Positions 1,753-32,295 of a DNA stretch of 32,295 nucleotides are shown here, piece by piece. The stretch spans positions 1 to 32,295 of the forward strand of contig DATMES010000018.1 in assembly GCA_035556555.1 (NCBI GenBank). The letters run 5' to 3'. The stretch comes from Frankiaceae bacterium. GTDB taxonomy: Bacteria > Actinomycetota > Actinomycetes > BP-191. Made by a program: the position numbers and the translations under genes. The first letter of the stretch is position 1; each line of letters starts with the position of its first letter. The notes below the pieces were generated by a model that saw only the letters and a program-made list of their open reading frames with translations, did no database searches and was not told the DNA's origin.

Positions 1753-1829
1753 CGGGTCTCCTCCGGCGGTCGGGTCATGTCGGGGCGAACGCGACTATCC
1801 TCGCGTCACCCCTCGAGAAGGAGCCCTAC

Positions 1830-2012
1830 GTGAAGCGCACGCTCTCCCTCAGGCGCGAGGTACTCACGGAGCTGTCCCCCGGCGAGCTGCTCGCCGTCGC
1901 CGGCGCGGCCGCGCCGCCGACCAGCCCGGTCGACTACTGCGTGAACACCCAGGTTGTCTGCTACACCCGCGCGGCCGGCTACTCCCGCTGCCTCTGCCCG
2001 ACGGAGGCGTGA
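1830..2012 (+). CDS. Putative RiPP (class I lanthipeptide-like) precursor peptide 1
   Basis: A 60-residue peptide starting at GTG 1830, behind a clear AAGGAG (1818-1823) with 6-base spacing. The N-terminal half KRTLSLRREVLTELSPGEL followed by LAVAGA follows the LxLxRExLxxLxxxELxxVxG leader pattern of many ribosomally made, modified peptides (lanthipeptide-type leaders with a GG/GA cleavage site). The C-terminal ~34 residues are the presumed core: Pro/Ala-rich, then DYCVNTQVVC and SRCLCPTEA, with four Cys plus Ser/Thr. The next gene has the same leader and overlaps this stop by one base (TGATG). No LanB/LanC, radical SAM, YcaO or peptidase/ABC exporter gene lies beside it, so the chemistry of the product cannot be told. 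A plain Cys-rich peptide is the alternative. Confidence 0.7.
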   Translation: MKRTLSLRREVLTELSPGELLAVAGAAAPPTSPVDYCVNTQVVCYTRAAGYSRCLCPTEA

Positions 2013-2185
2013 TGCGCCGCTCCCTCTCCCTGAAGCGCGAGACGCTGGCCGAGCTCACGGCGACCGAGCTCGTCGGGGTCGCCGGCGGGGCGCAGCTCAG
2101 CGGCCCGACCTGCCCGGCGCTCGAGTGCGTGAGCAACGCGCACCTCTGCGACATCACGTTCCAGCCGCGCTGCTTCGCCCCCTGA
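2012..2185 (+). CDS. Putative RiPP (class I lanthipeptide-like) precursor peptide 2
   Basis: A 57-residue peptide starting at ATG 2012, which shares its A with the TGA of the first precursor; GGAGG at 2003-2007 inside that gene is its ribosome site. The leader RRSLSLKRETLAELTATEL plus VGVAGG aligns without gaps to peptide 1 and ends in a canonical double glycine. The core then differs: PTCPALECVSNAHLC and FQPRCFAP, four Cys with scattered Ser/Thr. Both cores share CV-x5-C followed by a later RC pair, so they look like diverged duplicates whose leader is kept and whose core varies, as expected for substrates of one shared enzyme set. That enzyme set is not in the window. Too short for most gene callers. 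Confidence 0.7.
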   Translation: MRRSLSLKRETLAELTATELVGVAGGAQLSGPTCPALECVSNAHLCDITFQPRCFAP

Positions 2186-30659: not shown

Positions 30660-31552
30660 GCGCCCATCGCCGCCGTCCAGAGCACCGCCGCCGCGCCGAG
30701 GCCCCACCAGAGCGCCGTACGCCGGTGCCGCAGCACCGCGCCGACGACCGCCATCGCGTCGAGGCCGAGGAGGTAGAGCGCGTGCGCGGCGGGGACGTGC
30801 AGCGGCAGTGCGACGCGCGTGCCCTCCTCCGAGCCGACGAAGTCGACGAACGGCACGAACAGCGGCCCAATGTCGTCGGGGCCGTCGGCGGCGAGCGCGA
30901 TCGACACGCCCACGAGCAGAACGAGGACCGGCGGCCCGACGCCCCGCCACGGCAGCCAGCGTCCGATCATCGTGCCGAGCGTGGCCGCGCCGAGCACCGA
31001 CAGCGGCAGGGGCAGCAGCTCGAACGGCCCGGGCCGGCGGATCATGTCCGTGCCGGTCGCGCCGAAGTAGGCGTACGCGACGAGGACCCCGGCGAGCACC
31101 GCGCCCGCCGCGACGACGCCCGCGAAGCACGCGGCGAGCGTCCGGTCGACCTGCCCTGGCGGGGCCGCGCCGAGCAGGTCCTCGGCTCCGGCTCGGCGGG
31201 CGCGGGTGACGTTGAGGTGCGCGGCGAGGAACACCATCAGCGGCAGGTACAGACCCGCCGCCCCGGCGCCGGTGAGCTCGGAGTACGCCTGCGTGCCGTC
31301 GATGCCGGTGCTGAACCCGACCGCGAGCAGCGCGAGCACCACGCCGCACGCCGCGACGGGGTGCTTGGCGAGCTTGCGGGCCTCGACGAGTCCGAGCGTA
31401 CGGACGACACGCCAGCGCGACGGGTCGCGTGTCACCGACGTGGGCGTCCACGGCAGCGCGGGCGCGGGCGTCCCTACGGTGCCCGCCAGCGAACGCTGCC
31501 GGAGCGTGACGACGAGCGCCACGAGCATGACGGCGAGCGGGATGACCATCAT
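30644..31552 (-). CDS. ABC transporter permease
   Basis: A 302-residue integral membrane protein. An N-terminal helix (MVIPLAVMLVALVVTL), a cytoplasmic stretch with LVEARKLAKHPVAACGVVLA, and further helices (YLPLMVFLAAHLNVT, CFAGVVAAGAVLAGVLVAYA, PLPLSVLGAATLGTMIG, VGPPVLVLLVGVSIALA, ALYLLGLDAMAVVGAVL) give the six-helix plan of ABC-2-type exporter permeases. The RRAGAEDLLGAAPPGQVDRT segment is a typical cytoplasmic coupling loop. Its ATG overlaps the ATPase stop by four bases (ATGA). Substrate is unknown; ABC-2 systems of this size commonly export drugs, peptides or lipids. Confidence 0.8.
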   Translation of the reverse strand: MMVIPLAVMLVALVVTLRQRSLAGTVGTPAPALPWTPTSVTRDPSRWRVVRTLGLVEARKLAKHPVAACGVVLALLAVGFSTGIDGTQAYSELTGAGAAGLYLPLMVFLAAHLNVTRARRAGAEDLLGAAPPGQVDRTLAACFAGVVAAGAVLAGVLVAYAYFGATGTDMIRRPGPFELLPLPLSVLGAATLGTMIGRWLPWRGVGPPVLVLLVGVSIALAADGPDDIGPLFVPFVDFVGSEEGTRVALPLHVPAAHALYLLGLDAMAVVGAVLRHRRTALWWGLGAAAVLWTAAMGAWQVS

Positions 31553-32295
31553 GCGGCGACCTCCGCCCGGTCACCGAGCAGCAGCAGGTACCCGTCCTCC
31601 AGCGTCGGCGCGACGAGGTCGGCGCCGGCGGGTGCCGGGCCGAGGTTGCGGTAGACGCCCTCGCCCGTGCGCCACGCGGCCATTGCCGCGGCGTCCCGCT
31701 CGGCCGACGTCCAGACCCGGCCGGCTGCCACAGCGGCGAGCTCGGCCGGCGTACCCGACCAGGCCGCGCGCCCTGCGTCCATGACGACGACGTGTCGGCA
31801 CAGCGCGCCGACGTCCTCCGTCTGGTGCGTCGAGAGCACGACGGTGCGGCGTTCGGCCACGGTCGAGACGAGGTCGCGGAACCGCAGCCGCTGCTCGGGG
31901 TCCAGCCCCGCGGTGGGCTCGTCGAGGACGACCAGCTCGGGGTCGCCGAGCAGCGCCTGCGCCAGCGCCAGCCTGCGCCGCATGCCGCCGGACAGCGCGC
32001 GGATCCTCGTGCCCGACTGCGACTGGAGGCCGGTCAGGCCGAGCACCCGGCGCACCTCGTCGTGCCGCGACGCGCGGTCGGTCATCTCCTTGAGGATCGC
32101 GACGTAGTCGACGAACTCGAAGACCGTGAACCCGCGGTGGAAGCCGGCCTCCTGCGGCAGGTAGCCGAGGCGTCGGCGGACGCGGGTACGGTCCTCGGGA
32201 CGCGACGGGTCGCGGCCGAGCAGCGTCACCGCGCCGCGGTCCGGCGCCAGCACGGTCGCGATCATGCGCAGCAGCGTGGTCTTCCCGGCGCCGTT
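31549..32295 (-). CDS. ABC transporter ATP-binding protein (5' end outside window)
   Basis: The right edge cuts this minus-strand gene inside Walker A: the last bases read NGAGKTTLLR, so about 30-40 N-terminal residues lie beyond the window. Visible: Q-loop YLPQEAGFHRGFT, ABC signature LSGGMRRRLALAQAL, Walker B ELVVLDEPTAGLDP and the switch His in STHQTED. A C-terminal domain of ~75 residues (RVWTSAERDAAAMAAWRTGE onward) is typical of ABC-2/CcmA-like ATPases. It powers the permease genes 30644-31552 and 30150-30659 and overlaps the former by ATGA. Substrate unknown. Confidence 0.92.
   Translation of the reverse strand, partial: NGAGKTTLLRMIATVLAPDRGAVTLLGRDPSRPEDRTRVRRRLGYLPQEAGFHRGFTVFEFVDYVAILKEMTDRASRHDEVRRVLGLTGLQSQSGTRIRALSGGMRRRLALAQALLGDPELVVLDEPTAGLDPEQRLRFRDLVSTVAERRTVVLSTHQTEDVGALCRHVVVMDAGRAAWSGTPAELAAVAAGRVWTSAERDAAAMAAWRTGEGVYRNLGPAPAGADLVAPTLEDGYLLLLGDRAEVAA

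Follow-up and report, generated by a model that had tools for sequence, protein, structure and literature searches.

The closest described counterparts of the genes reported here are the prochlorosins and synechococsins of marine picocyanobacteria, where one class II synthetase (ProcM or SyncM) serves dozens of dispersed substrates. ProcM has 29 precursors and SyncM 79, with a conserved double-Gly leader and diverse cores, and the genes lie isolated or in tandem genome-wide (PMC10783134). Many-substrate lanthipeptide synthetases (10–80 precursors) have been described as class II, and are in use for peptide library work (PMC11667668). Our literature search turned up no class I system in which many precursors are dispersed; it was limited to open-access papers and is no proof of absence. 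For nisin there is only one precursor, with an FNLD box, and the protease LanP is a separate protein. Roseocin represents a single two-peptide system, produced with a class II-type enzyme. Its two precursors share a conserved leader and differ in their cores (PMC10027976).

The stretch of DNA analysed here (the window) has 32,295 bases and is an entire contig of a Frankiaceae bacterium. Near its left end lie two small genes, A and B, which we regard as very probably class I lanthipeptide precursors. They are part of a dispersed repertoire of 27–60 substrates per genome, specific to the genus, which one LanB/LanC and one LanT would mature. The features of the pair are:

1796..1801, + strand: -10-like box TATCCT upstream of A, from the TANNNT enrichment in the precursor family
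1809..1814, + strand: CCCCTC element upstream of A, common to the upstream regions of the precursor family
1818..1823, + strand: ribosome binding site of A, AAGGAG, from the sequence
1830..2012, + strand: precursor gene A, GTG start, 60 aa, TGA stop, from the ORF listing; family-profile E 3.6e-16 in its own genome
1830..1907, + strand: leader of A, MKRTLSLRREVLTELSPGELLAVAGA, ending in GA, a double-glycine-type cleavage site, from the alignment of 51 precursors
1908..2009, + strand: core of A, AAPPTSPVDYCVNTQVVCYTRAAGYSRCLCPTEA, with 4 Cys and 6 Ser/Thr, every Cys having a Ser/Thr 2–6 residues upstream
2003..2007, + strand: ribosome binding site of B, GGAGG, within the 3' end of A, from the sequence
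2012..2185, + strand: precursor gene B, ATG start, 57 aa, TGA stop, from the ORF listing
2012..2089, + strand: leader of B, MRRSLSLKRETLAELTATELVGVAGG, from the NF038153 match and the alignment of 51 precursors
2090..2182, + strand: core of B, AQLSGPTCPALECVSNAHLCDITFQPRCFAP, with exactly 4 Cys and 4 Ser/Thr

The border between leader and core was inferred from the GG/GA motif. An initial annotation of this DNA had described two overlapping ORFs joined by TGATG, with good ribosome sites, a common leader and divergent Cys-rich cores. The ORFs and their joint are exactly as claimed, the TGA of A (2010–2012) overlapping the ATG of B (2012–2014), and the ribosome sites are present. The leaders align without gaps over the first 26 residues, and the divergent cores have four Cys apiece. 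The same annotation took A and B for RiPP substrates with their maturation machinery elsewhere, which is supported by a full-length LanB elsewhere in the genome. Its statement that no modifying enzyme or exporter lies within ~9 kb held for the window genes tested, none of which looks like RiPP machinery, but the left side could be checked for 1.8 kb only, because the window is the whole contig. An ABC ATPase gene at the right end of the window (31549–32265) is nearly 30 kb away from A and B. What that annotation could not see is how many substrates there are, about 60 in dispersed positions with A and B as two of them, and that they are of the class I lanthipeptide type.

The own genome has 3.98 Mb in 71 contigs and is 99.9% complete. 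Searching it with the sequence of B, we obtained matches at 58 places, and a profile of 51 members gave 60 matches there at E ≤ 1e-7. Among 60 relatives, only two, both further species of this genus, carried the family (27 and 54 copies, versus 60 in the own genome). The 391 remaining genomes of the class had no profile match, so that 3 of 394 were positive, all from this genus. The likeness of A and B is thus not due to chance. Intact precursor ORFs numbered 59 in the own genome and 140 over the three species, and a Shine-Dalgarno core was found upstream of 115 of the 140, compared with 17% of random ATGs. Mean pairwise identity of the 140 precursors was 54% for the leaders and 25% for the cores. 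No Pfam model matched the precursors. When the leader was searched against RiPP precursor models, as had been proposed, most family members matched the class I lanthipeptide leader NF038153 (L1a): 39 of the 51 aligned members did so at E ≤ 0.1, the best with E 1.4e-6. B reached E 2.7e-4 and 21.1 bits, just under the curated cut-off of 22; A, with 11.5 bits, stayed well under it.

The precursors of the own genome form ~31 islands, of which 20 are single genes and the largest has 7 genes. Island neighbours include gyrA, tig/clpP (trigger factor and clpP), metH (methionine synthase) and argS (arginyl-tRNA synthetase). The gyrA gene near one single precursor gene carries an intein with a LAGLIDADG domain (L017:10684-14424).

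Absence from close relatives would have refuted the RiPP assignment; relatives were found in the sister species of the genus, and the core of B is conserved, its ortholog in sister species G002 keeping all Cys and Ser/Thr positions. The homologues of A and B in G002 are adjacent and in the same order (L081:1420-1599 and 1630-1797), and the genes around them differ, so that the two genes may travel or be retained together. The glyoxalase-like gene flanking A and B in the window is on a different contig in the sister species, so the neighbourhood is not conserved. The description of the substrates as paired fits A and B, adjacent in two species, but not the other islands, which have 1 to 11 genes.

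The first genes of islands had CCCCT[AC] just upstream of the ribosome site in 48% of cases, versus 1% of neighbouring genes. A TANNNT box was enriched about 25–40 bases upstream of first precursor genes; near -30 from the start, 10 of 73 fell in one five-base bin, versus 0.7 expected. The A/B pair has both elements, TATCCT and CCCCTC (window:1796-1814). Their common occurrence suggests that many dispersed units have promoters of their own, similar to each other, and points toward a shared regulation, for which we have only a computed pattern.

With respect to maturation enzymes, we found exactly one LanB in the own genome (G000:C2). It is full length, with PF04738 (526 bits) and PF14028 (195 bits) both above cut-off. 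The LanB family carries a leader-binding domain, and the lack of any such RiPP enzyme, the other outcome that would have refuted the initial annotation, was therefore not met. The operon has the order lanC, lanB, a gene for a 143-aa single-TM protein (mfp) and lanT, flanked by two and three precursors. This lanC-lanB-mfp-lanT order is kept in all three species, each time with precursors at its sides, and LanB is 67–68% identical to its sister-species counterparts. Aligned to MibB and NisB, LanB retains the glutamylation and elimination residues. The equivalents of NisB R83, R87, T89, D121, D299, R464, R784, R786, E823, R826 and H961 are invariant in the genus; the roles assigned to these residues are those of NisB. 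An AlphaFold prediction of LanB with a three-row alignment had a mean pLDDT of 41 and was discarded. Aligned to NisC, the operon LanC keeps the Cys-Cys-His zinc ligands, with the motifs WCYG and CHG. LanT is a C39 peptidase-ABC exporter with the expected Cys, His and Asp motifs of C39, and is closest to ABC transporters for bacteriocin export that carry a C39 domain. Of the enzymes suggested for the genome search, LanB and LanC were thus present, but no YcaO and no SPASM radical SAM protein was found in the 99.9% complete genome. Within the class, LanB has a wider distribution than the precursor family.

The 143-aa single-TM protein (L026:11715-12146) had no convincing family match and is perhaps a short membrane fusion protein. 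Sister genome G001 has a second lanB-mfp-lanT locus with five precursors, cut by a contig end (L065, G001:C9). It represents either a second system or a contaminating strain, the contamination of the G001 assembly being 7%. In the own genome, a second, stand-alone LanC (L032:1823-3426) is 44% identical to the operon LanC and keeps the zinc ligands. A divergent precursor with VSDGSCVC repeats in its core lies at a distance of about 130 bases, and this LanC is possibly a dedicated cyclase. A class III LanKC (NF038151, 804 bits) with ABC transporter genes (L033:2019-10165) is apparently separate from the LanB system. LanC matches at G000:C1:77-79 kb were rejected as components of the LanB system, since they belong to the class III LanKC locus.

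In the precursors of the three species, 549 of 569 core Cys (96.5%) had a Ser/Thr at -2 to -6. Several hundred shuffles, with Cys fixed and the other residues shuffled, gave a mean of 410 and a maximum of 441. The excess held for each species and in 37 non-redundant cores (141/144, shuffle maximum 116). In a comparison set of proteins flanking the islands, 238 of 471 Cys had a Ser/Thr at these positions. Relative to core Cys, Ser/Thr were overrepresented at -4 to -6; at -2, -7 to -9 and +1 they were underrepresented. In ten cross-species core pairs, 91% of Cys, 81% of Ser/Thr and 44% of other residues were conserved. Judged from sequence, this geometry is the one expected of (methyl)lanthionine rings and not of disulfide peptides. 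For core B, the predicted rings are S4-C8, T7-C13, S15-C20 and T23-C28. The dN/dS of orthologous cores could not be interpreted, with third positions nearly fixed for G/C.

We propose that the single LanB (G000:C2) would bind the shared leader and dehydrate core Ser/Thr via glutamylation and elimination. The LanC of the same operon would then close thioether rings with the core Cys, and LanT would export the product after cleaving it behind GG/GA. The outcome would be about 60 different secreted polycyclic peptides, a combinatorial set made by one enzyme set. The ORFs, the family with its confinement to the genus, the single LanB, the conserved operon, the intact motifs and the core geometry are observed; that this LanB, LanC and LanT handle all members, the exact ring pattern and the secretion are inferences. 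The assignment of about 60 substrates to one LanB is inferred from its being the only one in the genome. Against the proposal speak the NF038153 scores of A and B below the cut-off, the stand-alone LanC (L032) and the class III LanKC (L033) of the own genome, the second LanB of G001, truncated at a contig end, and the fact that the nearest named relative is known only as a MAG, with no isolate known to us; no product, transcript or enzyme assay stands behind the proposal. For the role of the peptides, interaction with other microbes is our best guess, held with low confidence; it is the weakest step, with no bioactivity data.

Compared with ProcM and SyncM, the likeness lies in the architecture. 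One LanB with 60 precursors in about 31 islands meets the prochlorosin-like pattern; that all are modified is an inference. The prochlorosins have a class II LanM with CCG and a Nif11-type leader, whereas here we found LanB and LanC with CHG, a 26-aa L1a leader and an actinobacterial host. With class I enzymes, another leader type and CHG instead of CCG, this system is thus not a member of the prochlorosin family. The LanB and LanC chemistry and the catalytic residues are like those of nisin (NisB/NisC/NisT/NisP), but the leader here is of the GG/GA type and the C39 peptidase is inside the exporter. Like the two roseocin precursors, A and B combine a conserved leader with cores that differ; in contrast to roseocin, the enzymes here are class I and the members about 60. 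The LanBs of Blastococcus, Mycobacterium, myxobacteria and Bacteroidota are 28–46% identical, and the leader motif there, LxLxKETLxxLxxxELxxVxGG, is the same as here. In 18 genomes with related LanBs, we counted 0–8 leader-family precursors, mostly beside LanB, whereas here there are 54–60, dispersed; copies in distant phyla may be undercounted in this comparison. We consider it likely that a class I LanB/LanC synthetase naturally serves about 60 chromosomally dispersed substrates, in one actinobacterial genus only; this would be a diversity-generating lanthipeptide system of a class for which our search of the literature gave no example.

Double-glycine leaders are also common to unmodified bacteriocins. 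The family could consist of class II-type bacteriocins without modifications, or of secreted peptides rich in disulfides, that leave through a C39 exporter, with LanB serving only the adjoining precursors, as would fit the weak matches of a few members to bacteriocin models and the fact that just 5 of about 60 precursors flank the LanB operon. Disulfides, however, require no Ser/Thr donors 2–6 residues upstream, such as 96.5% of the Cys have, and the Ser/Thr positions are kept almost as well as the Cys. Moreover, the dispersed and the LanB-adjacent leaders are one family, mostly matching the class I lanthipeptide model. The Ser/Thr-Cys geometry, together with a LanB/LanC operon having the same leaders, does not meet the criteria for unmodified double-glycine bacteriocins, and we hold this explanation to be quite improbable. 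Another RiPP chemistry (azoles, sactionine/ranthionine, graspetide) has in its favor only weak matches of eight members to the rSAM-target leader model TIGR04149. It is hard to sustain in a 99.9% complete genome where YcaO and SPASM proteins were not found and a full-length LanB has its elimination domain, and it appears very improbable.

A and B could also be a two-peptide lantibiotic of their own, to which the other family members have no relevance; this is compatible with their being class I lanthipeptide precursors. The two are translationally coupled, and the homologous pair in G002 has stayed adjacent and in order despite different surrounding genes. Sixty siblings with the same leader, in islands of 1 to 11 genes and with no further sign of pairing, make this unlikely as an account of the pair; a two-peptide function for A and B remains possible and is not required. 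Finally, the dispersal could result from a chimeric metagenome assembly, or the copies could be decaying remnants. The own genome is split into 71 contigs, and a MAG is its nearest named relative. Nevertheless, three genomes have the same pattern (60, 27 and 54 copies), and the ORFs are intact, with ribosome sites. The precursor contigs match the window in GC content and tetranucleotide signature, and have housekeeping genes among their neighbours, so the dispersal is real and not due to contamination; we give this alternative almost no credence.

If a single LanB/LanC does mature the whole class I repertoire, this naturally tolerant pair would be a new enzyme scaffold for libraries, with 140 natural substrates from three species. 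It would also provide an independent system in which to study the reasons for which bacteria retain dozens of thioether peptides, and the way in which a single enzyme handles them. Orphan precursors distant from any enzyme can be assigned through their leader; most of such a repertoire would be missed by gene-cluster-centred mining.

Elsewhere in the window, we annotated on the - strand a large protein in which BNR/sortilin-like repeats precede five DUF11 domains (window:6317-10759). A GTP cyclohydrolase I gene lies between two patatin-like phospholipase genes (window:14043-18017). Toward the right end, two adjacent genes on the - strand encode similar small proteins, one weakly matching DUF5666 (window:28812-30047).
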